Source: Desulfatirhabdium butyrativorans DSM 18734
GTDB lineage: Bacteria; Desulfobacterota; Desulfobacteria; Desulfobacterales; Desulfatirhabdiaceae
Direction of reading: 5' to 3'
DNA: 50,340 nt
Assembly: GCF_000429925.1 (NCBI RefSeq)
Contig: NZ_AUCU01000035.1
Span: forward strand, 1 to 50,340
The translations under genes were made by a program, and so were the position numbers. Of this stretch, positions 7,174-28,613 are shown one piece after another. The notes below the pieces were generated by a model. It had not been told where the DNA came from and ran no database searches. It was given only the letters and a program-made list of their open reading frames with translations. Positions within the stretch are counted from its first letter, which is position 1; every line of letters begins with the position of its first letter.

Positions 7174-8775
7174 ATGACCCCCCATCCATCTTCTCTGCCC
7201 CTGCAATCCTGGGTTCAGGAAATCCGTCTTTCGGAGCCATCCCTCAAGGACAACACGGCGGATGCCGATCGCCTCTGGCTTGCGCTCGCGGCACGCCTCG
7301 GCCCCTCCGAACAGCATCCTTCAACGGATTGGGACATCCTGTATTCCCTTCCCGACATGCTGCGAAAATCCGCCTATGCCGTTCAGGCCGTGCTCTTTCA
7401 CGACACGTTCCGCCCCGTGCTCGTCGACATACTGCCCCTTGCCGACCCATCCCCCGTTTACGGGATTGCGGTAGATTTGGGAACCACCCGGATCGTCATT
7501 CGGCTTGTCGATCTCAAGACCCGGTCCGTCTGCGGCGAGACGGCCTTCGACAATCCCCAGATTGCCATCGGACCGGACATTCTGAGCCGAGTCCATTACA
7601 GCAGCAACATCGATGGCGGACTCGAGCGTCTTCAGCAGGATGCAATCGATGGACTCAACCGGGAAATCGCCGGGCTCTGCTTGGCCGCCGGATCCAATCC
7701 GGAACGGGTGTTTCTGATGAGCGTTTCCGGAAACACCACGATGTCCCATTTCTTCCTGGGGCTTTCCCCCTACCATCTGATCCGGGAGCCCTATATTCCC
7801 GTCGTGAACCGGCCGCCGATCGTTTCAGCCAACCAACTGGGCCTGAAACTGCGTCCAACGGCCAAGGTTTTCGTATTCCCCAATATCGGCAGCTACTTCG
7901 GAGGCGATCTCATTTCCGGCATCCTGCATTCCGGGCTGCATCGCCGGGAGGAGACTGCTTTGCTGGTGGACGTCGGCACGAACGCCGAAGTCGTTCTGGG
8001 CAATGCTTCCTGGATGATGGCCTGCGCCGGGGCTGCAGGGCCGGCGCTCGAAGGCGGCGTCACCAGAATGGGCATGATGGCCGGAGCCGGCGCCATCGAC
8101 CGGGTGGATATCCATCCGGAAACCGGCCAACTGGTGATCCATACCATTGGCGATCAAAAACCCAAAGGCATCTGCGGCTCCGGCATCATCGATCTGGCCG
8201 CATGCCTATTTCGAAAAGGCTTCATCGATGTGCGGGGAAAACTCGTTCCTTCGGCTTGCGGTAATCGGCTCATGGATCGTGAGGGCATCCTGGCCTTCCG
8301 TATCGTGGATGCAAGCGATTCCGCCACAGGGGAGGCCCTTTTTCTGACCCAGGCGGATATCGACAGCCTGATCCGGTCGAAGGCCGCCATGTATACCATT
8401 CTGGAGACCCTGACGGCAACGGTCGGCATGACGCCGCAAGAGCTTCAAAGCGTCCTGATCGCAGGAACGTTCGGCATGTTCATCAACCCGGTTTCCGCCA
8501 TCACCATCGGCATGATCCCCGATCTACCCCTGGAGCGCTATCGGGCAATCGGCAATTCGAGCCTCGAAGGAGCGACTTTGGTACTGATCCAGCCCGAGGT
8601 AATGACCGAAATTCCCAATATTCAACGAAATATCACGTATATGGAACTCAATGTCAACGCCGATTTCATGAATCGATTCAGCGCGGCCAAGTTTCTGCCA
8701 CACACCGATCCGAAGTTGTTTCCTTCGGTGAATCGAAAACCCATCGACAATGCCGATGGTCCGGTTGCAAACTGA
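7174..8775 (+). CDS. RACo-like ASKHA ATPase (DUF4445) lacking the [2Fe-2S] domain
   Basis: From about residue 95 the protein has the ASKHA core of corrinoid-activation proteins: YGIAVDLGTTRIVIRL, VSGNTTMSHFFLG, LLVDVGTNAEVVLG, PKGICGSGIIDL, and a late VLIAGTFGMFINP. This matches the ATPase half of RACo/AcsV, which reductively reactivates the corrinoid iron-sulfur protein. A complete RACo is encoded at 26003-27964. Unlike that protein, this one has no ferredoxin domain: its first about 90 residues contain no cysteine cluster. It therefore cannot deliver electrons by itself in the known way. It may need a separate ferredoxin, serve a different corrinoid methyltransferase, or have another role. 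It stands alone, divergent from proC. Start ATG 7174 is the only good one. Confidence 0.8.
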   Translation: MTPHPSSLPLQSWVQEIRLSEPSLKDNTADADRLWLALAARLGPSEQHPSTDWDILYSLPDMLRKSAYAVQAVLFHDTFRPVLVDILPLADPSPVYGIAVDLGTTRIVIRLVDLKTRSVCGETAFDNPQIAIGPDILSRVHYSSNIDGGLERLQQDAIDGLNREIAGLCLAAGSNPERVFLMSVSGNTTMSHFFLGLSPYHLIREPYIPVVNRPPIVSANQLGLKLRPTAKVFVFPNIGSYFGGDLISGILHSGLHRREETALLVDVGTNAEVVLGNASWMMACAGAAGPALEGGVTRMGMMAGAGAIDRVDIHPETGQLVIHTIGDQKPKGICGSGIIDLAACLFRKGFIDVRGKLVPSACGNRLMDREGILAFRIVDASDSATGEALFLTQADIDSLIRSKAAMYTILETLTATVGMTPQELQSVLIAGTFGMFINPVSAITIGMIPDLPLERYRAIGNSSLEGATLVLIQPEVMTEIPNIQRNITYMELNVNADFMNRFSAAKFLPHTDPKLFPSVNRKPIDNADGPVAN

Positions 8776-11785: not shown

Positions 11786-11833
11786 CCTGTCCGCAGGCGG
11801 CGCACTGCTCCAAATAGGCCTTTCCGTTCAGGC
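11786..11833. repeat. partial copy of the TCTGAACG inverted-repeat element
   Basis: CCTGTCCGCAGGCGGCGCACTGC and CCAAATAGG-CTTTCCGTTCAGGC match one side of the elements at 28241-28322 and 39848-39930. The left arm is missing or too degraded to see. Its right end overlaps the stop codon of the epimerase gene. Confidence 0.7.
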
Positions 11834-12862
11834 GGAATAATACTCCCGATACCACTCGACAAATCGGGCGATGCCGGTCTGAAGCGGTGTAGCCGGCCGG
11901 AACCCCGCATCCCGCATCAGATCATCCACATCGGCGTAGGTTGCAGGCACATCTCCCGGTTGCAGATCCATGTAGATTTTCCGGGCGGTCTTTCCCAGGC
12001 AAGCCTCGATCGTTTCAATGAAATGGCTCAAAGTCACCGGCTGATTGTTGCCGATATTGTAAATGCGGTAGGGCGCCTTCGATGTGCCCGGATCGGGATG
12101 ATCACTGTCCCACTCGGCGTTTGGCTCGGGAAGCCTGCCCATGATGCGCACAACGCCCTCGACGATATCGTCGATATAGGTGAAATCCCGCTGCATGTTG
12201 CCATGGTTGAACACCCGGATCGGCTCGTCGTTCAGGATGGCCCTGGTGAAGAGGAACAAGGCCATGTCGGGTCTCCCCCAGGGACCGTACACCGTGAAGA
12301 ATCGAAGCCCGGTGCACGGCAGACGATACAGGTGGCTGTAGGTATGGGCCATCAGTTCGTTGGCTTTTTTCGTCGCCGCATAGAGGGATACCGGATGATC
12401 CACGTTGTGATGGACGGAAAACGGCATGAAGGTATTGGCCCCGTATACCGAGCTCGAGGATGCGAAAACGAGATGCTTCACGCCGCGGTGTCGACAGCCT
12501 TCCAGGACATTCAGAAAACCGACGAGATTGGTATCGACATAAGCCCTCGGATTGGTGAGGGAATAGCGAACGCCCGCCTGGGCCGCCAGATTGACGACGA
12601 CATCGGGTTTTTCGGAGGCGAACACCCCGTCGATGGCTTTCTCATCGGTCAAATCCACCCGGTGAAAGGAGAAGCGCTGGTCTTTGGACAGGCGTTTCAG
12701 CCGATCTTCCTTGAGCTTTGGATCGTAGTAATCGTTCAGATTGTCGATGCCGATAACGGGCAATCCCGCCTGCAGCAGCCGGTTGGAAAGATGAAACCCG
12801 ATGAATCCCGCCGCTCCGGTAACCAGCACCCGGTGAAATACCCAGTTCGAACCTGTCGTCAT
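11828..12862 (-). CDS. NAD-dependent sugar epimerase, UDP-glucuronate 4-epimerase type
   Basis: Extended short-chain dehydrogenase: [19 protein letters not shown] binds NAD, and the catalytic set is SSSSVYG with YAATKKANE. Stretches such as [48 protein letters not shown] and [13 protein letters not shown] are those of CapI/LspL-type UDP-glucuronate 4-epimerases, which make UDP-galacturonate for envelope polysaccharide. Its start overlaps the oleC stop by 4 nt, where an oleD (also an SDR) might be expected. The sequence nevertheless looks like a sugar epimerase, not OleD. The last codons and the TGA come from a dispersed repeat, so the C-terminus may be slightly altered. At 344 residues the length is normal. 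Confidence 0.85.
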
Positions 12863-14547
12863 GATGCCTCCGCGTTGTCGATCTTGCCCCGAAGCTTTTT
12901 CTCGGCCCAGAGCGCCAGCGCTTCCCGGTTGATTTTTGCATTGTGCCGCACATCGACCGGAAATGCGCCGGGAAACAACACATGCCGGATGTCCTGGACC
13001 AAGGGATGACGGGATGCCGTTTCAAGCAGCTCCTGCTCGAGCTGTTTCAGATCGATCGGGGAATCCCCCATGACCGGCTCGATACAGATGGCAGGCGTCT
13101 GATCGGGCGGTTGCCCGACACCGACCAGGGCGCTTCGAAACACATTCGGGTGCTGATTGAAAATCGCTTCGCAAGGAATGGTGTATAATTCCCCTTTCCG
13201 CGTCTGAACCCGGTGCGATTTTCTGCCGCAGAACCAGAGCCTTCCCTGGCTGTCGAACCATCCGAGATCGCCCATGCGATGCCATAGCGTCTGACCGTCC
13301 TGAATCTTGTGCAGAGCGCTCATCTCCGGATCCTCGAAATACTGCCTGCTGACCAGATCGCCACTGACCACGATTTCTCCGACTTCAGCCCTGTCCATCA
13401 CAAGCTGCTCATGCCATTTGGCAATGGGCTGATCGGTGATTTTGATGACATTCATCCGAACGCCGGCCAGCGGTCTTCCGACACAGATACCATATCCGTT
13501 TCGGGTAAGCGAAACCGTCTCTCCCAAAATTTCCCGACTCCCGATCGAGGTGACCGGGACGGCTTCGGTCGCACCGTAAGGGGTGTGGATTTCAACGCCA
13601 TCGGCCAGCATCCGGGAGAATGTCTCGATGGTATCGGCCGGAACCGGCGCCCCGGCAGAAACGACGCGTTTGAGGGAGTGCAGGCCGATCTTGTTCTGCG
13701 CCCCATATTCGCCGATCCTGCGCAACAAGGCGGGGGAAGCGAACATGTTCGTCACACCCTGGCTCAGAATCACCTCGATGATCCCTTGCGGATCGGCCTC
13801 CGCCGGTTTCGTGAAATCCATCTCGGGAATGACCGCCGTCATGCCGAGAGCGGGATCGAAAAGTGCAAACAGCGGGAAGGTCGCCAGATCGATTTCGTCT
13901 GGCGCGATATGAAAATGGGATCGGATGGTTCGGATCTGGGCGTCGAAATTGCCGTGCGTGTAGACAGCCCCCTTCGCTGGACCTGTAGAGCCGGAGGTGA
14001 ACAGGATCGCCGCCTTGTCGCTTCGCTGGGTGGTCGCAACCGGATACGAGCTCCAGGGCAGGTAAAAAAGCTCCCGCAACGTATACCCCCCCCAAAACCA
14101 GCGCGGACCCGCCGTCACATTCACCCGAACGCTCCGGAACGCCGATCGGTTCAGAACTCTTGCGACATGGGCTTCCGGCACACCGATAAACGCTTCCGGG
14201 GCGCATTTGCGGATACACTGAAGCATCCCTTCCTTTCCCATGCCCGGATCGATGACGATGGGAATGGCCCCGGTCTTGAACAGGGCAAACACCAGTGTGA
14301 AGAAATCGATCCCGGGCCGGACCATGAGCAAGGTTTTCACGCCTTTGGAAAGACCGATGGAATCGAGCCCGTGCGCCAGGCAGTCCGATTCCATGTCGAG
14401 TTGACGGAACGTCAGATGGGTAAAGGTGAGTCTGCCCTGATCGTCCCGTCCCGAAGGACATACGACGGCCCGCTTGTAGGGCCTCTCCTTGGCCATGTTC
14501 ACGAGGAGCGATGCGACATTGAACAATTTGTCGGAAGAAGGATTCAT
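12859..14547 (-). CDS. oleC: OleC-type beta-lactone synthetase
   Basis: AMP-forming ligase family. OleC activates a 2-alkyl-3-hydroxy acid with ATP and closes it to a beta-lactone, the third step of head-to-head olefin synthesis. The ATP loop is [20 protein letters not shown], the adenine motif HTPYGATEA, and the hinge region [17 protein letters not shown]. The C-terminal lysine motif is in [13 protein letters not shown]. The opening [17 protein letters not shown], the HGNFDAQ after the loop, and 562 residues fit OleC rather than a general acyl-CoA ligase. It overlaps the epimerase by 4 nt. A 234-bp repeat-rich spacer separates it from oleB, so it may have its own promoter or depend on read-through. 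Confidence 0.87.
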
Positions 14548-14562
14548 GGGATTATCCTGGTT

Positions 14563-14648
14563 GGGCTATGGGCGATAGGCGATAGTTTGGTGGTTTTCGA
14601 CCTATTTTCATCTGGGTTCAGTTTTAAGGGTTAAGGGTTAAGGGTTAA
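14563..14648. repeat. two adjacent 7-bp tandem arrays
   Basis: At 14565-14585: GCTATGG, GCGATAG, GCGATAG, which is the complementary family of the array before ftsH. At 14621-14648: GTTTTAA then three GGGTTAA units, the same heptamers as the large array at 27978-28089. Both lie in the oleC-oleB spacer. Confidence 0.85.
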
Positions 14649-14651
14649 GAG

Positions 14652-14762
14652 GTGGATGGAAACGTTTTGCTTTTGCAGGGGCAGCCCTATGTGGCCGCCC
14701 TTCCGGAAGCAAGGATCGTATTTTCATCCTCCGGGGGCGACACCCCTCGTCATGACCATTGA
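14652..14762. repeat. composite intergenic element, copy 1
   Basis: GGATGG-AACGTTTTG and TTTTG-AGGGGC at 14652-14687 match 28094-28121. The stretch 14705-14762 (GGATCG-ATTTTCATC, CCGGGGG, CCCCTCG-CATGA-CATT) matches 23914-23969 at about 80% by eye. The element fills the end of the oleC-oleB spacer and stops just before the 3' end of oleB. Confidence 0.65.
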
Positions 14763-14781
14763 TGATGATCGATTCGATATA

Positions 14782-15690
14782 TCAGGTCGCCGTTCTTTTC
14801 AAGAATTTCCGAATCGTCTTTCCCGCTTGTTGCGGTTCGTCCTCCAGCAGATAATGCCCCGCATCCGGATAGACGGCGGTTTCGGAATGGGGGAGCCGCC
14901 GTTTCCATTCGAGCAGATAATCCCGGTCGAACACGGCGTCCCGCAGTCCCCAGGCCAACAGAACCGGAATGCGTGCCAATTCGCCGATCCGTCCATCCAG
15001 CCAGGCAAGCATCGGCCAGGATGGATCTTCGGGACATACCGGGATGTCCATGACGAAACGATAGACCGCTTCCCGGTTCCGCAGTTTGCGATAGGGAGCC
15101 GTATAGCCATTCATGGCCTGGATGGAAAGGGGTTGGACAGCACCGAGGAAGAGAGCCGATATCACGAATGCATTCAATTTCAGCACCAGGAGTCTGGCCA
15201 GCTTCGGGTGGCTGCGCACGATGCTCAGCCGAAACGGGAGCCCCTTGTTTTTGGGCGGAAAGAACGCCGCCGTATTCATCAGCACCATCCCGCGAACCCA
15301 ATCGGGATGACGAAGTGCAAGCGCCACACCGATCGCTCCCCCCCAGTCGTGGGCAATCACCGTCATCGGCCTTTTCAGACCAACGGATTCGACAAATCGC
15401 TCCATGTCCTCGATGCGGCGCTCCAGGGTAAACGGGTAGGTCCCAGTCGCCGGGCGCTCCGAGAGCCCGCATCCGATATGATCCGGAACCACCGTTCGAA
15501 ACGACGGGGACAGCTCCCGGACGAGGCTTCGATAAAAGAAGGACCAGGTCGGATTGCCGTGCAGCATCAGAACGGCTGGTCCATCGCCTTCATCGACATA
15601 ATGGCACCGAAGCCCGCTCACGTCGACTTCGTGCGGCGCAAACGGAAATGCTTCCGCAAACGGATATCTGCAAATCGAAAGATTTCCCAT
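14782..15690 (-). CDS. oleB: OleB-type alpha/beta-hydrolase, beta-lactone decarboxylase
   Basis: Haloalkane-dehalogenase-like fold. OleB breaks the cis-beta-lactone made by OleC into an olefin and CO2. The oxyanion motif is HGNPTWSFFYRSL, the nucleophile Asp is in AHDWGGAIG, the GCGLSERP loop follows the first motif, and the catalytic His is in DAGHYLLEDEP. The 302-residue length and the cap (NTAAFFPPKNKGLP) match OleB more closely than true dehalogenases, and the neighbours oleA and oleC settle the assignment. Its start is 19 nt from the oleA stop. In some bacteria oleB and oleC are fused; here they are separate. Confidence 0.87.
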   Translation of the reverse strand: MGNLSICRYPFAEAFPFAPHEVDVSGLRCHYVDEGDGPAVLMLHGNPTWSFFYRSLVRELSPSFRTVVPDHIGCGLSERPATGTYPFTLERRIEDMERFVESVGLKRPMTVIAHDWGGAIGVALALRHPDWVRGMVLMNTAAFFPPKNKGLPFRLSIVRSHPKLARLLVLKLNAFVISALFLGAVQPLSIQAMNGYTAPYRKLRNREAVYRFVMDIPVCPEDPSWPMLAWLDGRIGELARIPVLLAWGLRDAVFDRDYLLEWKRRLPHSETAVYPDAGHYLLEDEPQQAGKTIRKFLKRTAT

Positions 15691-15709
15691 CGTTTATTCC
15701 CTGTTGCAA

Positions 15710-16750
15710 TCACCACCGGATCGCGAGCATCAGACAATTGAGGCCGCTGCCGATTCCGAGAAACCCCACCCGGTCGCCCGCTTCCAGAAATCCCCGCTCG
15801 TCCGCAATGGCCGCTGTCATCGGCAGGGAGACGGTTCCGATGTTCCCGAGATGGGCAAACGTCGAAAACTCCCTCTCCTGCGAAATTCCCAGGGCATCGA
15901 GAATGGCCCGCTGATGGGCCGCACCCACCTGGTGGCAGACGACCTTGTCGGGACCACCAGGCCCCCAGCCCGAAGTTTCCAGAAATTCCCGATAGGTTTC
16001 GACGCCGAGCTTTACCCCGTTTTGCAGCACGCCGATCGAATCGGTTTCCATGAAATGGTCCTGATTCGCCGGGAAACCCGTATCCGGCCCCCAGCAGCAG
16101 AGACGGTGCCACTGGACGGCATTGCGGATCACCCCGCCAATGAGACGGTGCCCCTGTCGAAGCCGGTCTGCACGGGCCAGCGCAACGGCCACGGCCCCCG
16201 ATCCGCCCGTCAGGGTGGCTACGGTTTTCCGGAACAGGGCCATGTCGGGGGCAGCATTCAGGCCATCGATCACCCGATCGATGATGTCTTTCGATGTTTC
16301 GCAGGAAACGACCAGCCCGGCTTCGATCTGGTCAAGCTCGATGGCGTTTGCCACATGCACCATGCCGTTGAGCACCCCGAGGCAGGCATTCGAGATGTCA
16401 TGAACATGGGTTTGGGGCGTCAGCCCCAAATCATGGGCGACTGCGCAGGCTGTGGCTGGCTCCAGCTGGTCGCGGCATACCCCGGCATAGACGAGCATGC
16501 CGATGGTCTTCCGGTCGATTCCCGCATTTTCCAGGGCTTTTTCCGCGGCTCGGGCCGCTCCTTCATGCATCGTCATGCCCGGCCCCCAGAAGCGTCTTTC
16601 CTCGATACCGGTCAGCAGGGCAAGCTGCCCCTGCTGCAGATGCATGGCGGCATAGGCCCGGGAAAGCCGGTTTTCGATGTCCTCCGATGTCAGCACATGC
16701 GGGGCAAGCTCATAGCCGAGTCCAGCAAGTACAACATTTCGATATCTCAT
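15710..16750 (-). CDS. oleA: OleA-type thiolase, head-to-head acyl-CoA condensation
   Basis: Condenses two fatty acyl thioesters to a 2-alkyl-3-keto acid, the committing step of ole hydrocarbon synthesis. Thiolase-fold residues: nucleophile Cys123 in DISNACLGV, His273 in VCHQVG, Asn303 in HLGNIGT. Glu97 in LEPATAC corresponds to the glutamate special to OleA (Glu117 of Xanthomonas OleA) and is absent from FabH. The late GIGSGLNCLMLAI is also typical. Length is 346 residues. The start overlaps the stop of the giant synthase by 4 nt (ATGA), so the acyl-chain maker and the condensing enzyme are translationally coupled. Confidence 0.9.
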   Translation of the reverse strand: MRYRNVVLAGLGYELAPHVLTSEDIENRLSRAYAAMHLQQGQLALLTGIEERRFWGPGMTMHEGAARAAEKALENAGIDRKTIGMLVYAGVCRDQLEPATACAVAHDLGLTPQTHVHDISNACLGVLNGMVHVANAIELDQIEAGLVVSCETSKDIIDRVIDGLNAAPDMALFRKTVATLTGGSGAVAVALARADRLRQGHRLIGGVIRNAVQWHRLCCWGPDTGFPANQDHFMETDSIGVLQNGVKLGVETYREFLETSGWGPGGPDKVVCHQVGAAHQRAILDALGISQEREFSTFAHLGNIGTVSLPMTAAIADERGFLEAGDRVGFLGIGSGLNCLMLAIRW

Positions 16751-19700
16751 CTGTTTTCTTCAACGACCCCCACACCGAAATCCGTCATTTCATAAATCCG
16801 CACACCGTCCACTTCCAGAAAGCCGTCGGCGATCACCATCGGGATCGGTTCCGTTTCCATCGATTTGATGTGCGCCTCGATCCGCACCTGGCCATTGCCA
16901 GGCAGAATCTGCCCCCGATAGGTCCAGCCGTGCTCTTTTCCCGTCAAGAGGGTCCACCGGGCGCCCGTCTTCGGCTCACGCGGCACCGGGACCAGGCCCT
17001 TCAGCATCATCCCGCACCGGAGCACCTGCAGAAAGGCCTCGAGGCCGAGAGAACCCGGCCAAACCGGATCCCCGTGAAAATGGGCCTGGAAAAACCAGGC
17101 ATCCGGCCGTACGGCACACATGCCCGTCCATACCCCCTGGCCATAAGCCCCCGGATCTTCACTTTCGCAGCAAACGGCATCGATCATGCGGAACATCGGC
17201 TGGGGCAGCCCCGGTCCGGCAGGAAGACGGACCGGATCGATATCCGCGATTTTCACAAAGGGCAGGTTCTGCTTACCGGAAACCGGCTGCGGAGACATTC
17301 CGCGTATCGCAGGATTGCGGATGCCCGCCTGAGCCCGAAGCGCGGCTTCCGTGAAAAACCCGAATTCGGTCTCTCCTTCCAGCACCGTTTGGTTGTCCCG
17401 AAGGACCCGCGTTTCAAAACGCTCGATGATCATATCCCCGGCAACCGACACCCGGATCAGGCCCGCCTGCATGGCGAGTTTTCCGGGATGGGGCAACACA
17501 TCCCGCATCAGCCGGAAACGCCCGCCCAGGTTGCGGAAATGGAGCCCAACCTTGCTGGAAAGCGCCGATCCGCAATGGGCCGCCAAAAACCCGCAGGTCT
17601 GGAGCGCCGACTCCTGCAGCACGGCATACGGCATGATACCACATCCCCCGGCTTCGAAGTACCAGGCGCCGGGATCGATGTCGTGTTCGGCCGTGACAAC
17701 GCCGCCGGTTCGAGGCCCGAGACCCGGCGATTCACCGGTTTGAACCCGATCCAGAAACAGAAACGGCGGCGCGGGAAGTCTTGCCACGAACCGGCCGTCA
17801 TCCAAGGCCGCAAATCCATCCCCAAAAAGGGCCGAGATCGGTTTGCCCGTCGCAAAGGCCTCGATATCCGGTTTCAGGTACCGGGATTTGCCTTGCCCGG
17901 TTTCGATGGTCCCGCCGCCGTTCCGGACAACCGCTGCCGTTCGGCCGCCGGACATTCTGGATGCGGCATCGATTCGGCCCTGAACGGTTTCGATCGCTTC
18001 CCGGCTTGCCCCAGCAAGCCGCATCGAAACCCCCGTGAACCGCACGATGTGCCTGCCATCCGCAAACATGTCCGCCTCGGCCAACACATAGGGCTCCGGA
18101 GAAAACCCGATTTCGGATATCTGCACTTCATAGCGCACCTTCCGGGTCTTCGGCGTGACCGGGCCCCGGCACTTGAGAACGCTTTTGGCACCCGGAAACG
18201 GCTCATAGCGGGCATCCGGACGGTCGCAGATCCAACCCGCCCGCATCAGCAACACCCGCAGACTGTGGCTGCAGCATTCGTACATCAGGGTTCCCGGCAT
18301 GACCGGATCGTCCATGAAATGGCAGGTCAGAAACCAGTCTTCTGGATGAATATCCGCTTCTGCAACGATCCGGCCCAGCCCGAACCTTCCCCCTGCCGGA
18401 TCGAGGCGGAGCACCCGATCGATCAGCCGCATCCGGCCCGATGGCAGGCGCAGTTGCGGGGAGATGCGGATGCCGTCAAACGCCCTCCCGAAGCATCCCG
18501 CCAGATCCCCGACCCGCAGGGCATCGATCTGCCGTTCCGTATAGCGTTCAGGCCCATCCGATACAGGCGGCGGCCAGTTTTGCGGTTTTTTCCCTACGAC
18601 CGCGGCCTGTTCGGCATCGGAGAGCAGAATGCCTCCGGAATGTTCGATTTCCGCAGCGGTGAAAAATCCCGCGCAGCCGTTTCGCATCCGGATGAAGGGC
18701 TTTCCATCGATGGTACCATCGAATCCGAAAAAAAACATCCAGGTTTTCGCCTGCCGGATGAATTTTTCGATGCGGATATCGTAGCGAATGGTCTCCCCCG
18801 GCCTGGGCAAGTCCCGAAAAAACGTCACTTCGGCATCGAGCAACCGGTACATGCGCTCCCCCCGCACCTGAAAATCGATGCCGAGATAGGAACACAGGAA
18901 AAGATCCGCCTGACCGGCTTCCACCGAAATGCATACCGGCGCCCTGTCGCCGTCCAGATACCAGGCCCCCGGAAGCACATCGTGTTCCGTCACCACCCGG
19001 CCCTTGCCAAGCGAGCGGGGCTCTCCTTCGACGGCAAGGATCCGATCCACGAGCATGAGCGGCTCATCCGGGAGCCGGACCCGCACCGGGTAGGTGTCGA
19101 TGACGGCAAATTCCGGCCCCAGCACATCGGCTACCGATCCGACGGCAAACGCCATGCATTGCGATCGGTCAAAGGCCGGAGTGCCGGCTTTGGGCATCGG
19201 TTGAACGGTCATACGATGCGCTTCTTCTACCCTCACCCCGCCCCTCTCCCGCCGGGAGAGGGGGTTAACTGAAACCGTAGTGAATGACCGTTCAACGGTT
19301 CGATCAGCGACGGTTGCCGAGCCTTGGGGCTTTCCCCGCTCCTGCAGGAGATTGGCAGAATGGCGATTTCGGCCATCCGATGGACCGATCTTCCATACCC
19401 CCGGCACCCGTTCCCGGAAAATGGCCTGTTTCTGCCGGGTTTCCGCCGCTTCGGCCTGTAAAGTATGAATCCGGTTTCCGCAGAACGCCGCCGGATCGAT
19501 ATCGATGCCGCAGGCCGCCAGATTTCCGCAGAGCTTGAGCACCCCAAGCAGCTCATCCTCCCCTTTCCAGTTGGCAAATCCGCACCAGTGTTCCCGATCT
19601 TTCAGGATGGCATCGATCATGCGGGAGCAGGATGCATGGGGACCGACCTCGACAAAGAGGCGCACCCCCTCGTCCCAGGCATTCCGGATCAGCGCCGGAA

Positions 19701-22700
19701 AATCGAAGCCGGAAAGCGCCTGGGCCGTGATGGCATCGGCTGCTGAATCCGGAGTCGGCTGATAGACCTTCCCCGAGGCGGCGCTGAAATACCGAATGCC
19801 GGGCGCGGGGGTTGTCGGCAGTCGATGCATGTCCCGGTAGGCGTCCCGGACGGGAAGCACGGCATCGCAGTGGACGCTCGATACCCCCTCGATCTCGAAG
19901 GCATCACAGCCGATCCGGGCCACCAGGGCATCCACATCGGTGCGGTTTCCGCCGATCACGCATTCTTCGGGGGTATTGACGATGAGCAGCCGGACCCGCA
20001 TGTCTGGCGAGAGGTGTTGCCGAACGATGTCGGCGGAAGCGCGCAGCCCGACGGCCGCCCACACGAACGGTTCTTCGGCGCCAATGCCCCAGGCGGAGCG
20101 AACGGCGTTGCAGGGTCCGGCCAGATCGGTGGTGAAAAGGCTGCTTTCGGCCATGCGGGTCAGCATGCGGGAGCGGTCCCGCCATGCGCCGGTTGCGAAC
20201 AGCCCCGTGCTCTCCCCCAGGCTGTAGCCGATGACGGCATCGGGATGGAGGCCCAGCCCATCGAGAATCCGGGTCATGACACAACCGAACATCACCTGCC
20301 CGAAAATGGGATAAAGCGGTTGGTGGCAAAGCGCGGCCCGCGCATCCTGCTCCCATCCCTGCGGCCAGTCCAGGCGCCAGGGAACCAGCCGATCCGGCAC
20401 CAGCCGGTCGAAAAGCCCGCCGTCTTCGGCTTCGAGCCGGCGAAACACTTCCGGGAAATGCACCGCAAGCGTGTGCATCATCCCCGGATAATGGTTGCCG
20501 CTCCCGGGATAGACGAAGGCGATCCTGCCGGAGACGGGCTTTGGGGCATAGGCGATCCGGGTCGGACCGATCATGCGGCTTTCACGGCCGGAGCGGATCA
20601 GATCCCTTGCCTGACGGCACCGATCCGGAAGGGATTGGCGATCTTCGGCAAGGATTGCAATCCGGCGCTTGTGGCCGGAAGAGGCGGATGCACCGCGCAC
20701 CCGCCAGGCGCAGGCGGTTTTCGCAATCGGCCAGCCGCCTTCCACCGAAACCAGCCATTCCTGGAACTGGTCGATCTGTTGCAGCAGGTGACTCTCGTCA
20801 TCCCCGCGGATGACAAAGAGCCCCCAATGGGGGCAGATGACGCGCTCATCCGGCAAAACCGCACGCCCGCCGGATGATGCCGGCTCTTCTTCCAGCAGCA
20901 CATGCCCCGTCTGGCCGTCGATTCCGATGGCGCAGGCAAGCGCCCTTCTGGGTCGATCCGCAGCCATCCTGGCCCAGTATTGAACCCGGTTGGGAATGTG
21001 CAGCCTGCCACGTTTCATCGATGGCATCACGCGTTGCGGAAGCGCCCCCATCTTCGGCATCAGCCTGTGGTACAGGCACAGGCATGCCAGCACCAGCTCC
21101 GCCATCGCCGCGGCGCTTCCCGCATGACCGATCACCGCCTTTGCGGATACGATCCCGCACCCGGCAGGATGCCTGGAAAATGCACTTCCGAAAACGCTCG
21201 CCTCGGCCTGATCGGCCAAAGGGTCGGCGCTTCCATGGGCGCAAACCAGATCGACGGCATCCGGTTCCAGCGCCGCAGCCTGCAGGCTTTGCCTCAGCGA
21301 TCGGCTGCAGGTATCCGCCAGACGATCCGCCTGCCCGCAGCAGGGGCCGATCCCCCGGATCACGGCATATATCCGGTCGCCATCCGCCAGGGCGTCGTCC
21401 AACCGTTTGAGCACCAGGGCGCCTGCCCCTTCACCGGGAAGAGTCCCGCAGGCATCCGCCGAGAACGGAACCAATTCTGCGCCGAATCGCCTTCCCGCTT
21501 CGGCGATCGCAAGCGCCCGCACATCTCCGAAAATATCCACGGCGCCGATCAGCATGCAGTCGATTTCGCGCCGATTCAGCAGACCGGCGGCAACCGTAAG
21601 CGCCCGAAACCCCGACAGGGCGTCTTCCGAAACCGTGAAGCACGGCCCGCCGCAACCGAATTCACGCGCGATGCGGCTTGCGATGATCCCGCCCAGCGCG
21701 CCAATCGTGCGTGTGGCGGTCAGCGGGGGGATCGATGCGGCAACCGATCCATCCCGGCTGCGCCACCTCTTGTGAAAATCGCAGGCTTCCCGGTCGAAAT
21801 CCATGCCGATCACAACGCCCATGGCCGCCATCGCCTCCGGATCCCGCTTCAGCCCGGCATCCAGGATGGCCTCCCGGCCGACCTGCAGCATCAGCAAATG
21901 CTGCACCAGAATGTCGTCGATTTCGATCGGTGGAATCCGGAATGCCGAGGCTTCAAAACGCAACCGATCCAGAAATCCGCCGCGGATCGCCTCCAGCCGA
22001 TGGCTATGGCCCCGCCGCAGATCGGATCGTTCGGCAATCACCGGTTTTCCGCAGAACAGATGCTCCCGCAGATCCTCGAGGTTCGACAACCCGGAAAAAG
22101 AGGCCCCCATGCCGACCACGGCGATGGGGCTCATTCCGCTGGCGGGGGCCGAATCGGCCAACGGATTTCCCGCATACACCTGCCCTTCAGCCGCATCGGC
22201 CGGCGGCAGCCATTCCTCCAGAAGCACGTGGGCATTGATGCCGCCGAATCCGAAAGCGCTGACTGCCGCCCTTCGGGGGGTGGACGGATCGCGCCGCACC
22301 CAGGGTTCCGGTTCTCGCTGGATCCGAAACGGTGAGCCGGTAATGGCGGGATGCTCGTTTTCGCGGGGTGTGTTCAGGCTGGGCGGCAGGATGCCGCTTG
22401 CCATGGCAAGTACCGTCTTGATGAGGGCTGCTGCCCCTGCCGCTGTCAGCAGATGACCGATGGTGGATTTGACGGATCCGATGGGGCATCGGCCCGGATT
22501 TCCGGAATACCCCGACCAGAGCCGCCCGAGACTCTCGATTTCCACCGCATCGCCAACCGGCGTACCGGCTCCGTGGCATTCGATCAGATCGACATCCGCC
22601 GGCTGCCATCCGGCTGCCGCATAAGCCGCCCGCATGGCCCGGAGCTGGCCTTCGCTGTCAGGCGCAAGGAGATTGCCCCGGGTGTCGTTCGACAGACCAA

Positions 22701-23580
22701 TTCCCCGCAGGACCGAAAGAATGCGATCTCCGCTGCTCAGCGCATCCGAAAGCCGCTTCAGGCTAACGATGCCTGCCCCCTCACCGACGACAAGCCCGTC
22801 GGCGGATGCGCTGAATGGCGCGGGAACGCCGGAAGGCGACAAGGCGCGAAGCTGGCTGAATCCAACCTGGGTATAAAGGCAATCGGGTCTCGAGACCCCG
22901 CCTGCCAGTATGGCATCCGCCCGGTGGTCGATCAGTGCCTGGCAACCCAGATACACGGCATAGAGGGATGAGGCGCATGCCGCATCGAGGGTGAACGCCT
23001 CCCCGGAAAAGCCAAGAGCCCGGGCAAGCAGCACCGCCGGGTAGCCTGTCACGCGGCCTGCCCAGGGATGGGTATCCATGAACGGGAAGCGGTCCGAAAA
23101 CCGGGATGCCGTATCGGTGGGCAGGGCGATGGCCGCCAGAATCACCTGGATGCGGAATGGATCGAGAGTGTCCAGATGAGCCGGTGCGGCGGCCTGCCGC
23201 CCGGCATGCAGCACGAAATGGTACAGGGGATCGAGCGACTCCAGGTAGCTTCCGGGTAGATGAAACCCGGAAAAATCGATGTCTGCGCCTTCCACCAGGC
23301 AGGCCATCCGGGAAACGGCCCGATCCGGCTTCAGCGGGAAAGCCACCATCTCATCCGGAGAAAGGCCCCATCGGGATTCCGGAACGTCCCGGGATGCGCA
23401 CCGGCCATCCAGGATTTGCTGCCAGAATTCCTGCGGGCTCGGACTTCCGGGAAAGATGCACCCCATGCCGACCACGGCGATGGGGCAGTTGCGCCATCGC
23501 TCCAGGGAAATTTCGTTGGATGAAGTTGTTTCTACGTTTTTCAAAACGGTTTGGTTGTCAAAGCTTCTGGTTGAGGGCAT
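16747..23580 (-). CDS. PfaC-like multidomain synthase, KS-CLF-AT-(DH)4
   Basis: 2277 residues related to polyunsaturated-fatty-acid synthases. Domains in order: ketosynthase about 31-457 (Cys202 in DAACASS, His336 in CHGAGTPVGD, His376 in KSTIGH); chain-length factor about 484-898 (SEDALSG replaces the Cys motif); acyltransferase about 1018-1350 (Ser1120 in GYSLGES, His1237); linker about 1370-1465; four hot-dog dehydratase-like units about 1470-1655, 1690-1860, 1905-2090 and 2105-2277. Only the second (CHFMDDPVMPG, His1754) and fourth (AHFHGDPVWPG, His2167) have the catalytic His; the first and third read PGAWYLDG and PGAWYFEA. No acyl carrier protein, ketoreductase or enoyl reductase is visible, so partners such as PfaA and PfaD must lie elsewhere. 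The KS-CLF-AT-DH order recalls myxobacterial Pfa3 without its acyltransferase end. Part of the linker is encoded by a palindromic repeat. It overlaps oleA by 4 nt. Confidence 0.88.
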   Translation of the reverse strand: MPSTRSFDNQTVLKNVETTSSNEISLERWRNCPIAVVGMGCIFPGSPSPQEFWQQILDGRCASRDVPESRWGLSPDEMVAFPLKPDRAVSRMACLVEGADIDFSGFHLPGSYLESLDPLYHFVLHAGRQAAAPAHLDTLDPFRIQVILAAIALPTDTASRFSDRFPFMDTHPWAGRVTGYPAVLLARALGFSGEAFTLDAACASSLYAVYLGCQALIDHRADAILAGGVSRPDCLYTQVGFSQLRALSPSGVPAPFSASADGLVVGEGAGIVSLKRLSDALSSGDRILSVLRGIGLSNDTRGNLLAPDSEGQLRAMRAAYAAAGWQPADVDLIECHGAGTPVGDAVEIESLGRLWSGYSGNPGRCPIGSVKSTIGHLLTAAGAAALIKTVLAMASGILPPSLNTPRENEHPAITGSPFRIQREPEPWVRRDPSTPRRAAVSAFGFGGINAHVLLEEWLPPADAAEGQVYAGNPLADSAPASGMSPIAVVGMGASFSGLSNLEDLREHLFCGKPVIAERSDLRRGHSHRLEAIRGGFLDRLRFEASAFRIPPIEIDDILVQHLLMLQVGREAILDAGLKRDPEAMAAMGVVIGMDFDREACDFHKRWRSRDGSVAASIPPLTATRTIGALGGIIASRIAREFGCGGPCFTVSEDALSGFRALTVAAGLLNRREIDCMLIGAVDIFGDVRALAIAEAGRRFGAELVPFSADACGTLPGEGAGALVLKRLDDALADGDRIYAVIRGIGPCCGQADRLADTCSRSLRQSLQAAALEPDAVDLVCAHGSADPLADQAEASVFGSAFSRHPAGCGIVSAKAVIGHAGSAAAMAELVLACLCLYHRLMPKMGALPQRVMPSMKRGRLHIPNRVQYWARMAADRPRRALACAIGIDGQTGHVLLEEEPASSGGRAVLPDERVICPHWGLFVIRGDDESHLLQQIDQFQEWLVSVEGGWPIAKTACAWRVRGASASSGHKRRIAILAEDRQSLPDRCRQARDLIRSGRESRMIGPTRIAYAPKPVSGRIAFVYPGSGNHYPGMMHTLAVHFPEVFRRLEAEDGGLFDRLVPDRLVPWRLDWPQGWEQDARAALCHQPLYPIFGQVMFGCVMTRILDGLGLHPDAVIGYSLGESTGLFATGAWRDRSRMLTRMAESSLFTTDLAGPCNAVRSAWGIGAEEPFVWAAVGLRASADIVRQHLSPDMRVRLLIVNTPEECVIGGNRTDVDALVARIGCDAFEIEGVSSVHCDAVLPVRDAYRDMHRLPTTPAPGIRYFSAASGKVYQPTPDSAADAITAQALSGFDFPALIRNAWDEGVRLFVEVGPHASCSRMIDAILKDREHWCGFANWKGEDELLGVLKLCGNLAACGIDIDPAAFCGNRIHTLQAEAAETRQKQAIFRERVPGVWKIGPSDGRNRHSANLLQERGKPQGSATVADRTVERSFTTVSVNPLSRRERGGVRVEEAHRMTVQPMPKAGTPAFDRSQCMAFAVGSVADVLGPEFAVIDTYPVRVRLPDEPLMLVDRILAVEGEPRSLGKGRVVTEHDVLPGAWYLDGDRAPVCISVEAGQADLFLCSYLGIDFQVRGERMYRLLDAEVTFFRDLPRPGETIRYDIRIEKFIRQAKTWMFFFGFDGTIDGKPFIRMRNGCAGFFTAAEIEHSGGILLSDAEQAAVVGKKPQNWPPPVSDGPERYTERQIDALRVGDLAGCFGRAFDGIRISPQLRLPSGRMRLIDRVLRLDPAGGRFGLGRIVAEADIHPEDWFLTCHFMDDPVMPGTLMYECCSHSLRVLLMRAGWICDRPDARYEPFPGAKSVLKCRGPVTPKTRKVRYEVQISEIGFSPEPYVLAEADMFADGRHIVRFTGVSMRLAGASREAIETVQGRIDAASRMSGGRTAAVVRNGGGTIETGQGKSRYLKPDIEAFATGKPISALFGDGFAALDDGRFVARLPAPPFLFLDRVQTGESPGLGPRTGGVVTAEHDIDPGAWYFEAGGCGIMPYAVLQESALQTCGFLAAHCGSALSSKVGLHFRNLGGRFRLMRDVLPHPGKLAMQAGLIRVSVAGDMIIERFETRVLRDNQTVLEGETEFGFFTEAALRAQAGIRNPAIRGMSPQPVSGKQNLPFVKIADIDPVRLPAGPGLPQPMFRMIDAVCCESEDPGAYGQGVWTGMCAVRPDAWFFQAHFHGDPVWPGSLGLEAFLQVLRCGMMLKGLVPVPREPKTGARWTLLTGKEHGWTYRGQILPGNGQVRIEAHIKSMETEPIPMVIADGFLEVDGVRIYEMTDFGVGVVEENR
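19229..19265. repeat. palindromic repeat inserted in frame in the synthase gene
   Basis: CCCTCACCCCGCC followed by the palindrome CCCCTCTCCCG-CC-GGGAGAGGGG (19241-19264). It is read on the minus strand as NPLSRRERGGVRV, residues about 1439-1451, in the linker between AT and the first DH. The same peptide is the usual translation of a widespread bacterial intergenic repeat. Confidence 0.75.
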
Positions 23581-24114: not shown

Positions 24115-25992
24115 ATGGCAAAGCCCCATTTCTGGCCGGACCATTACATCCAGAACACAAAGTCGGCAGAAGAGGCCATCGGTCTGATCAAACCGGGCCA
24201 GCGGGTGTTCATCGGCTCATCCTGCGGGGAACCCCAGCATCTGGTTCGGGTCCTGGCCAATGCCTCGAGCAGCTTCATGGACATCGAAATCGTCCGGGTC
24301 ATGTCTCTCGAAAGCACCCCCCTGACCCTGATCGCCAACAAGACCCAGGATCAGATCCTGAATATCCGATCGTTCTATCTGGGGTCCGCCAAACCCAAAA
24401 GCCTTTCGCGCAACCTGCGTTTCATCACGCCGCTCAACCTCTCCGCCATACCCAGACTCTTCAAGAGCCGGATGATGCCTGTGCATATCGCGCTCATTCA
24501 GACAACGCCTCCAGACGATTTCGGATGGCTCAGCCTCGGCATCTCCGTCGATATCACCCTTGCGGCGGCCCAATCCGCGGATCTGGTCATCGCCCAGATC
24601 AACCCGAAAATGCCGCGTGTGCTGGGCCAGAGCTTCATCCACGTCAACGATGTGGACATTTTCGTGGAATACGAAGAACCCCTGCTGGGCGTTCCCAAGA
24701 CACCGGAACTCGAAGCGGCCAACACCATCGGCAGACTGATTTCCCGGCATATCGAGGATGGCTCCACCATTCAGATCAGCCCCGGCACCACCCCCCAGGC
24801 GACGATGCTGGCGCTTCAGGACAAGAACGATCTCGGAATCCATACCCAATACATGACCAGCGACATCATGCATCTGTATTCCGCGGGCATCATCACCAAC
24901 CGATGCAAGGGGTTCAACGACGGCAAGATGGTGGCCAGCACCGCCATCGGAGACGACAACCTGTACGAATTCATTCACGACAATCCGGCCGTCGAGTTTC
25001 ATCCTTCCGATTACGTGAACAACCCCTCCATCATTGCGCGCCACAACCGGATGGTAGCCCTCAATGTCGTCACGGCCATCGACCTGACCGGGCAGGTCGC
25101 GGCCGATTCCCTGCCGTACACCCAGTTTTCCGGGGTTACCGGAATGATGGATTTCATCCGGGGCGCCACCCAGGCGGAAGGCGGAAAATCGATTCTGCTG
25201 ATGCCATCCACGGATGCCACCGGAAAAAAAAGCCGGATTCTGCCGCTTCTGAACGATCGGGCCATTGTCATCCCGCGAGGGGATGTCCACTATGTGGCAA
25301 CGGAATATGGCGTGGTCAATCTTTTTGGAAAGAGCTTCCAGGAGAGGGCGCTTGCCATGATCAGCATCGCCCATCCGGCTTTCCGGGACGAGCTGTTTTT
25401 CGAAGCGAAGAAAATGGGCCTCTTCAGCCAGGAGCGCACCCTGACCGAATCCATGCATGGGGTCTATCCCGTCGAACTCGAAGAGAATCTCAAAATCGAC
25501 GGGGAAACCGTTACGATCCGGCCGGCCAAACCCATCGACGAGCGCCGCATCCAGGAGCATTTCTACTCCCTCGACAAAAACGATGTCATTTCCCGCTTTT
25601 TCCATGAAAAAACGAGTTTTCTGAGAAAGGAAATGCAGGGCATTTCCCAGATCGATTATGTGAAAAACCTGACGATGCTCGCGGTCGTCGGCGAATTCGG
25701 TTTTGGCAAGGTGGTTGCCATCGGCGAATACCTGATCGAAGAATCCAAGAATCTGGCGGAAGTGGCCTTTTCGGTCAGCCATGAGTGGCAGGGCAAGAAG
25801 CTCGGTAAAATTCTGCTGCACAAACTGGCCATGGCCGCCAAGCAAAACGGCATTGCAGGGCTGATCGCATTCACGAATCACGATAACCAGGGAATGATCC
25901 GGCTGTTCGAAACGCTTCCTTACAAGATCAAAAAGACGTTCGAGGAAGATGTGCTCGTTTTGATATGCCGGTTCGATGAACCCAAAGCTTAA
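24115..25992 (+). CDS. acetyl-CoA hydrolase/transferase-family protein fused to a GNAT domain
   Basis: Residues about 10-460 have the CoA-transferase fold of acetyl-CoA hydrolase/4-hydroxybutyrate CoA-transferase proteins: ISPGTTPQATMLAL, GIHTQYMTSDIMHL, HPSDYVNNPSIIARHNRMVALN, DLTGQVAADS, TEYGVVNLFGKSFQERA. Residues about 465-620 are a GNAT acetyltransferase with the acetyl-CoA loop HEWQGKKLGKILLHKL. Such fusions occur in anaerobic deltaproteobacteria. In classical family members the segment reads HTE, whose Glu forms the glutamyl-CoA intermediate; here residue 245 is Gln, so transferase activity is doubtful. The GNAT part could acetylate protein lysines, perhaps using acetyl-CoA status as a signal. 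AAAGGAGG precedes the ATG. The gene ends 11 nt before the RACo start, implying an operon. Confidence 0.82.
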   Translation: MAKPHFWPDHYIQNTKSAEEAIGLIKPGQRVFIGSSCGEPQHLVRVLANASSSFMDIEIVRVMSLESTPLTLIANKTQDQILNIRSFYLGSAKPKSLSRNLRFITPLNLSAIPRLFKSRMMPVHIALIQTTPPDDFGWLSLGISVDITLAAAQSADLVIAQINPKMPRVLGQSFIHVNDVDIFVEYEEPLLGVPKTPELEAANTIGRLISRHIEDGSTIQISPGTTPQATMLALQDKNDLGIHTQYMTSDIMHLYSAGIITNRCKGFNDGKMVASTAIGDDNLYEFIHDNPAVEFHPSDYVNNPSIIARHNRMVALNVVTAIDLTGQVAADSLPYTQFSGVTGMMDFIRGATQAEGGKSILLMPSTDATGKKSRILPLLNDRAIVIPRGDVHYVATEYGVVNLFGKSFQERALAMISIAHPAFRDELFFEAKKMGLFSQERTLTESMHGVYPVELEENLKIDGETVTIRPAKPIDERRIQEHFYSLDKNDVISRFFHEKTSFLRKEMQGISQIDYVKNLTMLAVVGEFGFGKVVAIGEYLIEESKNLAEVAFSVSHEWQGKKLGKILLHKLAMAAKQNGIAGLIAFTNHDNQGMIRLFETLPYKIKKTFEEDVLVLICRFDEPKA

Positions 25993-26002
25993 GGAAGCAG
26001 TC

Positions 26003-27964
26003 ATGAAAGGATATACCGTTCGATTTTTACCGCACGACAAGACCATAACGGTCGACGAAGGAACAACGGTCCTCCGGGCGGCCATGGCGGCAGGTGTGCA
26101 CATCAACGCATCCTGCGGCGGAGAAGGCGTATGTGGAAAATGCCGGGTCCTGATCGAAACCGGCGCCGTGGAAGGCGGTATTACCGAAAAATTGAGCCGG
26201 CAAGACATCGAGCAGGGCTACCGTCAGGCATGCCTATCGACGATCCGGGGAGACCTCACGGTTCGCATTCCCGTTGAATCCGTCGTCGATGCCAGTATTC
26301 TGAACATGCAAAGCACCCCCCGCCGGATGGCCGGCATCCAGGAACCTGACTTCAATGAACTCAAGGAACAGGGTCTGTTCCTGCCACCGGTCGAAAAGAA
26401 ATATCTCGAATTGCCCGAGCCATCCCATCAGGACAACCTGCCGGATGTCAGCCGCCTGATCGGATTTCTGAAACTGGAGCACGATGAGCACCGGCTCGTC
26501 GTCTCGCTTCCGGTCATCCGAAAACTTCCGGGCATCCTGCGCCAGAGCGGATTCAAAATCACGGCCACCCTTGCAAGGCCCGTTCATCCCGGCCGAAAAA
26601 CCCACATCATCAACGTCCAGCCAGGCGATACGACAGACCGCAATTACGCCATCGCCATCGACATCGGCACGACAACCGTTTACGGCCAGCTCATCGATCT
26701 GATCACCGGCAATGTGCTCGCCCAGTTCGGCGATTTCAACGCCCAGATCAGCTACGGCGAGGATGTGATCAGCCGGATCATGTATGCCGAAAAACCCGGG
26801 GGGCTCGATAAACTCCATGAAGTCGTCATCGGCACCATCAACGGCATTATCGCAAAGATGCTGAAAAAATCCGGGATCGACCGGGATGATGTGAACGCCA
26901 TCACCCTGGCCGGAAACACCACCATGACCCAGCTCATGCTCAAGGTCGATCCGCGATACATCCGCAGATCACCTTATGTGCCGGCATCGACCATCTACCC
27001 GCCCATCATGGCCAAATCTCTGGACTTCGAGCTGGGCGATCATGTGACGGCTCTGGTCTACCCCCAGATTTCGAGCTACGTCGGCGGGGATATCGTCTCC
27101 GGGGTCATGGGATCGGGCATGTACCGCACCGAGGAGCTTACCCTGTACCTGGACATCGGCACCAACGCCGAAATCGTCATCGGCAACAAGGACTGGCTGG
27201 CCTGCGCCGCCTGCTCCGCCGGGCCCGCCTTCGAAGGCGGCGGCATCACCTTCGGGATGCGGGCCACCAAGGGTGCGATCGAGGATTTTTCCATCGACCC
27301 GATCACGCTCGAGCCCATGAACATCACGATCGGAAACGTCCGGCCCAAGGGAATCTGCGGATCGGGGCTCATCATCATGGTGGCCACCCTTTTCGAGATG
27401 GGCATCATCGACAACAAGGGAAAGTTCAACCGGGATTTGAAAACGCCCCGAATCCGCGAAACCGAAGGCATTGTGGAGTACGTCCTGGCCTTTGCCGAAA
27501 ACACCCAGATCGACAGGGACATCGTCCTGACAGAACCCGACATCGACAACCTGATCCGCGCCAAGGGAGCGATTTACAGCGGATGCATGACCCTGCTCGA
27601 AGAAGTCGGGCTGAACGTGAATGATTTGCAGCGGATCATTCTGGCAGGCGGTTTCGGCAGTTATGTGGACCTCGCCAAAGCCATGGTCATCGGCCTGCTT
27701 CCCGAAGTCAACCCGGACCAGGTCACCTATGTCGGCAACGGATCGCTGATGGGCGCCCGGATGAGTTCGCTCACCAACCGGATCCGCAGGGACGTGGTGG
27801 ATGTGACCAAACGCATGACCAATTTCGAGCTCTCCGAAACCCGATCCTACATGGACAACTACGTTGCGGCCCTTTTCCTGCCGCATACGGACATCAACAA
27901 ATTCCCGAAGCTCAAGGCAAGACTCGAATCAAGGGGAAAATCCCACCGAGAACATTTATCGTGA
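26003..27964 (+). CDS. acsV: RACo, reductive activator of corrinoid iron-sulfur protein
   Basis: Reduces inactive Co(II) corrinoid to Co(I) with ATP so that the CFeSP can take a methyl group in the Wood-Ljungdahl pathway. Start ATG 26003 follows AAGGAAG at 25991; an upstream ATG at 25976 lies inside the preceding gene. Residues about 1-85 are a plant-type [2Fe-2S] ferredoxin with CGGEGVCGKC and a later QAC. A linker follows to about 205. The ASKHA ATPase is marked by YAIAIDIGTTTVYGQL, LAGNTTMTQLML, LYLDIGTNAEIVIG, PKGICGSGLIIM and ILAGGFGSYVD. At 653 residues it is full length. The acs operon begins about 650 bp downstream on the same strand. Confidence 0.92.
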   Translation: MKGYTVRFLPHDKTITVDEGTTVLRAAMAAGVHINASCGGEGVCGKCRVLIETGAVEGGITEKLSRQDIEQGYRQACLSTIRGDLTVRIPVESVVDASILNMQSTPRRMAGIQEPDFNELKEQGLFLPPVEKKYLELPEPSHQDNLPDVSRLIGFLKLEHDEHRLVVSLPVIRKLPGILRQSGFKITATLARPVHPGRKTHIINVQPGDTTDRNYAIAIDIGTTTVYGQLIDLITGNVLAQFGDFNAQISYGEDVISRIMYAEKPGGLDKLHEVVIGTINGIIAKMLKKSGIDRDDVNAITLAGNTTMTQLMLKVDPRYIRRSPYVPASTIYPPIMAKSLDFELGDHVTALVYPQISSYVGGDIVSGVMGSGMYRTEELTLYLDIGTNAEIVIGNKDWLACAACSAGPAFEGGGITFGMRATKGAIEDFSIDPITLEPMNITIGNVRPKGICGSGLIIMVATLFEMGIIDNKGKFNRDLKTPRIRETEGIVEYVLAFAENTQIDRDIVLTEPDIDNLIRAKGAIYSGCMTLLEEVGLNVNDLQRIILAGGFGSYVDLAKAMVIGLLPEVNPDQVTYVGNGSLMGARMSSLTNRIRRDVVDVTKRMTNFELSETRSYMDNYVAALFLPHTDINKFPKLKARLESRGKSHREHLS

Positions 27965-27977
27965 ACATGCGGATTCA

Positions 27978-28089
27978 GGGTTAAGTTTTAAGTTTTAAGG
28001 GTTAAGTTTTAAGTTTTAAGGGTTAAGTTTTAAGTTTTAAGGGTTAAGTTTTAAGTTTTAAGGGTTAAGTTTTAAGTTTTAAGGGTTAA
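27978..28089. repeat. 21-bp array made of 7-bp units (GGGTTAA, GTTTTAA, GTTTTAA)
   Basis: Five exact 21-bp units, each GGGTTAA followed by two GTTTTAA, and then one more GGGTTAA: 16 heptamers in all. Every unit carries TAA, and the 7-bp step brings stops into all three frames on both strands. It starts 14 bp after the RACo stop codon. Confidence 0.95.
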
Positions 28090-28240
28090 GGGTGTATGGG
28101 AACGTTTTGGTTTTGTAGGGGCGACCGGCCGGTCGCCCCTGCAATGGGCGTCTTGGACCAAGGTTGTGGATTCCTGCATTGACCGGGAGTGGCAGGCCGG
28201 ATTTTCATGGGCGGGGGATTTTCACTCCCTGGGATAGATA
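28090..28240. repeat. composite element with GGCCGG palindrome, copy 3
   Basis: GG-ATGG-AACGTTTTGG at 28094-28110 matches the oleC-oleB spacer. A palindrome GTAGGGGCGACCGGCC/GGTCGCCCCTGC occupies 28115-28142, identical to that at 23844-23871. The part with GGATTTTCATGGGCGGGGG near 28198-28217 is a weaker match to the element's second half. Confidence 0.7.
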
Positions 28241-28322
28241 GTGTCTGAACGGAAAACCCGTTTTGGGTACAACCTGAGCCGGAGGGCGGGCTGCTCCGAA
28301 TAGGGGTTTTCCGTTCAGGCAC
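28241..28322. repeat. 82-bp inverted-repeat element, copy A
   Basis: Ends GTGTCTGAACGGAAAACC and GGTTTTCCGTTCAGGCAC are near-perfect inverted repeats. The interior (GTTTTGGGTACA, GCTGCTCCGAATAGGGG) matches 39848-39930 in the opposite orientation. No coding capacity; MITE-like. The rest of the spacer to 28613 holds no gene; a TTGACA at 28349-28354 is a weak -35 candidate for the acs operon without a good -10. Confidence 0.85.
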
Positions 28323-28613
28323 GAGATAACCCCTGCCATGAGATTTTATTGACAAATGTCTCGGCTTGGGTTAGGGCTTTCAAGTTAAAATTTTTCCTTT
28401 TGGGAGCAACCCGTCCCAAAGGGTGAATTGCGTCGATCAGACCGGACGGGACAGACCCAAATTCGATCATCATAGCCGCCCAGGTGCGGATTTGCGATAA
28501 CCAGTGAAATTCATGTCGAAAGGAGCGTGATCGAACACCACAAGGAAATGTTCGTTGGCAGAAAGAGGCATCACCATTGACCCCATAAACCACCAACAAT
28601 CAAGGAGGGAACT

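Follow-up and report, generated by a model that had tools for sequence, protein, structure and literature searches.

A PfaBC fusion gene coupled to oleABC in Desulfatirhabdium butyrativorans, probably part of a dispersed pathway for polyunsaturated hydrocarbons

Described Pfa-Ole systems and the pfaBC-oleABC cluster

In some bacteria, a polyunsaturated fatty acid (PUFA) synthase, Pfa, is paired with the Ole enzymes that make long-chain alkenes. The anaerobe Geobacter bemidjiensis Bem (Deltaproteobacteria in the older sense), a producer of C31:9, carries a tandem array of pfaD, pfaA, pfaB, pfaC, oleA, oleB, oleC, oleD and pfaE (PMC4882568). A 2011 catalogue describes pfaBC fusions of Deltaproteobacteria and their frequent linkage to ole genes; its Type I, that of G. 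bemidjiensis, has a pfaBC fusion, Type C of the sulfate reducer Desulfatibacillum alkenivorans AK-01 has a fusion with the domain order ketosynthase (KS), chain length factor (CLF), acyltransferase (AT) and two dehydratases (DH2), and Type K of Desulfococcus oleovorans Hxd3 has a configuration like that of Type I (PMC3098273). In Shewanella, OleA condenses a chain supplied by Pfa and acts in vivo on chains bound to acyl carrier protein (ACP); the synthase is encoded by five genes, pfaABCDE, pfa and ole are referred to as two operons, and a polyunsaturated ketone is reported for Shewanella genes (PMC6463001). Here we analyse a stretch of 50340 bases (the window) from Desulfatirhabdium butyrativorans DSM 18734, a probable sulfate reducer. 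The window is the whole of contig C21 and contains a pfaBC fusion gene followed by oleA, oleB, oleC and a sugar epimerase gene. The pfaBC and oleABC genes are very probably part of the known Pfa-Ole pathway for polyunsaturated long-chain hydrocarbons, with its components scattered over several loci of the genome.

By description, the locus resembles that of G. bemidjiensis in having Pfa and ole genes of the same enzyme kinds in tandem, and its fusion resembles that of Type C. It differs from G. bemidjiensis in that the window has pfaBC-oleABC only, with pfaD-pfaA and a candidate oleD on contig C1 and an ACPS-family transferase on contig C11. Shewanella differs further in that its pfaB and pfaC are separate genes. 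The original prediction, made on the window alone, knew of no described pathway with this coupling; the tandem cluster of G. bemidjiensis (PMC4882568) and the ole linkage catalogued in 2011 (PMC3098273) are precedents in print.

The five open reading frames lie on the minus strand (Table 1), at the places and with the sizes and spacings first predicted. The stop codon of pfaBC and the start codon of oleA overlap by 4 nucleotides (nt), oleA and oleB are 19 nt apart, oleB and oleC are 234 nt apart, and oleC overlaps the epimerase gene by 4 nt. The pfaBC/oleA overlap recurs in a sister record, L045, titled Desulfonema limicola isolate SulCav, whose OleA is 94% identical; there the oleA-oleB gap is 3 nt. 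The pfaBC-ole genes may be co-transcribed. Scans for promoters (0 sites, 4.2 expected) and terminators (10 sites, 11.7 expected) were uninformative either way.

Table 1. Coordinates of the pfaBC-ole cluster in the window and of related genes on contig C1
Feature	Position	Strand	Description and basis
pfaBC fusion	16747..23580	-	2277 amino acids (aa); KS, CLF, AT, FabA-like domains alternating degenerate/active twice; Pfam and NCBIfam matches, motifs
ATGA overlap, pfaBC stop/oleA start	16747..16750	-	Read from sequence; also in L045
oleA, head-to-head acyl-condensing thiolase	15710..16750	-	346 aa; NF006720 match, 3fk5 the best solved relative
oleB, alpha/beta hydrolase, presumed beta-lactone decarboxylase	14782..15690	-	302 aa; Abhydrolase_1 match
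oleC, presumed beta-lactone synthetase	12859..14547	-	562 aa; PRK09274 match
Sugar epimerase, presumably UDP-glucuronate 4-epimerase type, not OleD	11828..12862	-	344 aa; 5u4q match
pfaD	C1:82487-83794		Enoyl reductase; 609 bits, cut-off 449
pfaA	from ~C1:83.9 kb		Adjoins pfaD; KS, MAT, two ACP motifs, ketoreductase, PS-DH; 1334 bits to omega_3_PfaA, cut-off 1010
OleD candidate	C1:296424-297389		Two OleD models matched, at 382 and 400 bits; cut-off 580 each

Enzymes of the predicted pathway

Judged by its sequence, the largest protein is a PfaB-PfaC fusion with the order KS-CLF-AT-DH2. Pfam identified KS twice, four FabA-like stretches and, below its cut-off, an AT (29.1 against 32.7 bits); the AT active-site motif GYSLGE is present. 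The first KS has the Cys and both His motifs, and the second, the CLF, lacks the Cys. The H..P.PG site occurs in two of the FabA-like (HotDog) domains, at residues 1754 and 2167, and is degenerate in the other two. Pfam matches and motifs together thus place the KS, the CLF and two active-motif FabA-type DH domains of the PfaC part in this protein. No Pfam match to an ACP, a ketoreductase or an enoyl reductase was found in its 2277 residues, and it is therefore not expected to synthesize a chain by itself. The KS-CLF-AT-DH domains originally predicted are correct, but the stand-alone synthase that they implied is not supported; the activities that it lacks are supplied by PfaA and PfaD, encoded on another contig.

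OleA matched the family model NF006720 at 461 bits (cut-off 285). Compared with solved structures, it scored 214 bits to 3fk5 over its full length, whereas no other 3-oxoacyl-ACP synthase exceeded 74 bits. We take 3fk5 and 3row, to both of which OleA is alike over its full length, to be Xanthomonas OleA structures, with Glu, Cys, His and Asn as the catalytic residues. E97, C123, H273 and N303 of the window's protein align with these residues of 3fk5 and are invariant across 11 aligned sequences. We know of no link between Xanthomonas OleA and a Pfa synthase. A check proposed with the original prediction was whether this protein would fall with other thiolases; it is closer to the OleA structures than to FabH. 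In a tree of OleA from the 59 of 87 loci in which both regions are whole, the window and L045 are paired (support 100/100) and group with four more relatives (98/93), and six rows from outside the order stand apart (100/100).

OleB matched Abhydrolase_1 at 115 bits and is haloalkane-dehalogenase-like, although under the cut-offs of those models; OleB enzymes are known to resemble haloalkane dehalogenases. OleC matched PRK09274 at 732 bits (cut-off 478). The ratio of nonsynonymous to synonymous substitution rates relative to L045 was 0.09 for oleA, 0.15 for oleB and 0.25 for pfaBC (last 1093 aligned codons). Thus, the three genes tested are under purifying selection.

The remaining components lie elsewhere in the genome. 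The search for pfaA and pfaD that had been suggested found both, together, on C1 (Table 1), and one ACPS-family transferase match was found on C11. Among 14 genomes searched, no OleD match passed the cut-off of 580 bits. C1 is 308223 bases long, and even with its end joined directly to the start of C21, the OleD candidate would be approximately 22 kb from oleC; it is thus off the operon but not proven to be far from it. With PfaA, PfaD and the best OleD candidate on another contig, the genome but not the locus seems to have a complete pathway, and the idea of a self-contained pathway at this locus is not supported. At the end of pfaA, and touching it, is a methyltransferase gene (L021 15367-16089, plus strand); its product might modify the chain, or the adjacency may have no functional meaning. 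The OleD candidate lies beside an ATP sulfurylase gene (L039 6697-9522, minus strand).

The gene after oleC does not encode OleD. Its product scored 58-60 bits against the OleD models (cut-off 580) and 460 bits over 333 residues against 5u4q, deposited as a dTDP-glucose 4,6-dehydratase; we take it to be of the UDP-glucuronate 4-epimerase type. Each of seven genomes searched, including that of D. butyrativorans, contained a single match at a threshold of E 1e-70, and in the six others it was on a contig different from those with observed oleA or oleC. The gene following oleC encodes a Bmp-family protein twice and an amidohydrolase once in genomes G002, G003 and G005; the contigs of G001, G006 and G391 end near or inside oleC, which leaves room for linkage to the epimerase there. 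At >300 bits, the epimerase was absent from all 80 named ole loci examined, which are the best of 353. The scores, the 5u4q match, the placement on other contigs and the separate OleD candidate together rule it out as OleD, and it is probably not part of the pathway.

Occurrence in other genomes and neighbouring genes

The order, most likely Desulfobacterales, was sampled with 194 genomes. OleA occurred in 141 and PfaBC in 142; 135 had both, 6 had OleA only, 7 had PfaBC only and 46 had neither (Fisher p 2.5e-30, uncorrected for kinship). Gene positions were usable for 101 of the 135, and in 63 of these the two genes were on the same strand within 6 kb, 60 of them within 900 nt. The gene order that the original prediction proposed looking for in related genomes is therefore common. 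The named loci overlap with the order genomes and are not independent of them; by title, 63 are of Desulfo-type, 13 are given only as Deltaproteobacteria and 4 are others, including one Calditrichota, and these titles are what points to Desulfobacterales as the order. In 60 of the 71 named loci with at least 600 nt upstream, the end of PfaBC was no more than 1.5 kb upstream of OleA. Downstream of OleA, testable loci contained OleB in 66 of 74 cases, OleC in 52 of 64 and OleD in 33 of 50.

The degree of dispersal varies within the order. G010 has pfaD, pfaA, pfaBC and oleABCD on one stretch of approximately 22 kb; between its pfaA and pfaBC are genes for Phage_holin_4_2-family and TauE/SafE-family proteins (L032 5547-7956, plus strand). 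G055 has oleABCD together, approximately 470 kb from pfaBC. In the window's own family, G002, G003 and G005 have their OleD match and oleABC on different contigs, and G001 has no strong OleD (best 82 bits).

In a sample of 198 genomes from the phylum, OleA occurred in 24 and PfaBC (match threshold E 1e-100) in 17, with both in 16. Nine of these 16 lie outside the order, and OleA adjoins PfaBC in six of the nine; the two are on different contigs in G325, G360 and G377. Five of the six linked cases have the order pfaD-pfaA-pfaBC-oleA-oleB-oleC (pfaA was matched only partly in G312 and G348). The sixth, G272, has pfaD-pfaA-pfaBC-oleA together and an OleB match that starts approximately 10.5 kb further on. 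OleD is whole in two of the six stretches and represented by its first 37 residues in G330; the stretches of G249, G348 and G272 end too early to show it. A 3.7-kb record titled Calditrichota (L081) contains the end of pfaBC, oleA, oleB and oleC in the same order; transfer or mis-binning could account for it.

Beside the operon is an acetyl-CoA synthase gene set (24115-37724, plus strand) encoding a CoA-transferase fused to GNAT, a RACo-type protein, two CdhD-like proteins, a CO dehydrogenase, the acetyl-CoA synthase, a pterin-binding protein and a DUF3786 protein. A second RACo-like protein, without a Fer2 match, is encoded at a distance from these genes (7174-8775, plus strand). Genes for Cas3, Cas5, Csd1, Cas7, Cas4 and Cas1 (42488-49891, plus strand) are presumably a type I-C set; no CRISPR repeat array was found at 39500-42500 or 49800-50340.

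Proposed pathway, alternatives and significance

In the proposed pathway, PfaA (KS-MAT-ACP2-KR-DH, where KR is ketoreductase), PfaBC (KS-CLF-AT-DH2) and the enoyl reductase PfaD would assemble a polyene acyl chain on the PfaA ACPs, with the synthase activated by a phosphopantetheinyl transferase. OleA would then join two chains head to head, OleD would reduce the beta-keto acid, OleC would close a beta-lactone and OleB would remove CO2 to leave the alkene. This order of reactions is taken from the literature; the genes, domains, catalytic motifs, co-occurrence, linkage and purifying selection come from the present analysis. The substrate would be a polyene chain and the product a C31:9-like polyene, and OleA may receive the chain directly from PfaA. 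Co-occurrence, linkage, the PfaA and PfaD scores above cut-off and the OleA residues agree with the original prediction in pairing a PUFA-synthase part with OleA, probably in an anaerobe and probably for a polyunsaturated hydrocarbon, although not as a self-contained unit.

Several observations weigh against this pathway. PfaBC scored 97 bits in the PfaB-family acyltransferase model (NCBIfam), under the cut-off of 144, and OleC scored 600 and 598 bits in two olefin beta-lactone synthetase models with cut-offs of 850 and 900. The OleD candidate is also under its curated cut-off, and it is on C1, with no OleD at the window locus. The OleA proteins of the window and of L045 share a branch of 0.76, so that their specificity may have shifted. 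In 38 of the 101 order genomes with usable positions, no neighbouring OleA and PfaBC genes were detected, and PfaBC was not upstream in 11 of 71 named loci. Lastly, the step from a Pfa chain to C31:9 in Geobacter is speculation by the account of PMC4882568 itself.

Two alternatives have some support, and we regard neither as likely. Pfa could supply membrane lipids with a long fatty acid, polyunsaturated or not, while the Ole enzymes condense chains from type II fatty acid synthase (FAS II), with the operon only co-regulating two products. The genomes in which the two genes share a contig without being same-strand neighbours (8/101) or are on different contigs (30/101, mostly drafts) would fit this, as would the 8 of 24 OleA-containing phylum genomes with no PfaBC match at E 1e-100, which indicate that OleA can occur without this synthase. 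Strong co-occurrence, frequent short-gap linkage, compact pfa-ole clusters outside the order and C31:9 in G. bemidjiensis (PMC4882568) argue against it, and we consider it improbable. The synthase could instead be of another secondary-lipid type, for example heterocyst-glycolipid-like, supplying a saturated or hydroxylated chain to OleA. The PfaB-family score of PfaBC is consistent with such a synthase, but PfaA and PfaD of the same genome pass PUFA-family cut-offs, and PMC3098273 describes the Type C synthase of a sulfate reducer as KS-CLF-AT-DH2; we consider this idea similarly improbable. That the epimerase replaces OleD, giving a glycosylated beta-hydroxy acid or beta-lactone rather than an alkene, is suggested by the oleC/epimerase overlap and is extremely unlikely given its placement on contigs other than those of the ole genes in six genomes, the different genes after oleC in G002, G003 and G005, its absence at >300 bits from the named loci, the existence of an OleD candidate and the purifying selection on oleB.

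Novel aspects of the Pfa-Ole pathway may be its frequency in the order and a possible difference in product. Among the results listed by our searches of open-licence literature, no paper treated this pathway across Desulfobacterales, which is weak evidence. A PUFA-synthase-fed olefin pathway could be standard in Desulfobacterales and, with OleA of the window's lineage far diverged, yield a product other than C31:9, so that an undescribed polyene alkene would be widespread in sulfate reducers; we offer this tentatively and think it rather doubtful.

Should the pathway operate as proposed, over two thirds of the order genomes sampled (135/194) could encode oxygen-independent production of polyunsaturated long-chain alkenes, and sulfate reducers could therefore be a source of such compounds in sediments. 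In addition, the fused pfaBC-oleA operon offers a way to test whether OleA takes its chains directly from the ACPs of a PUFA synthase.

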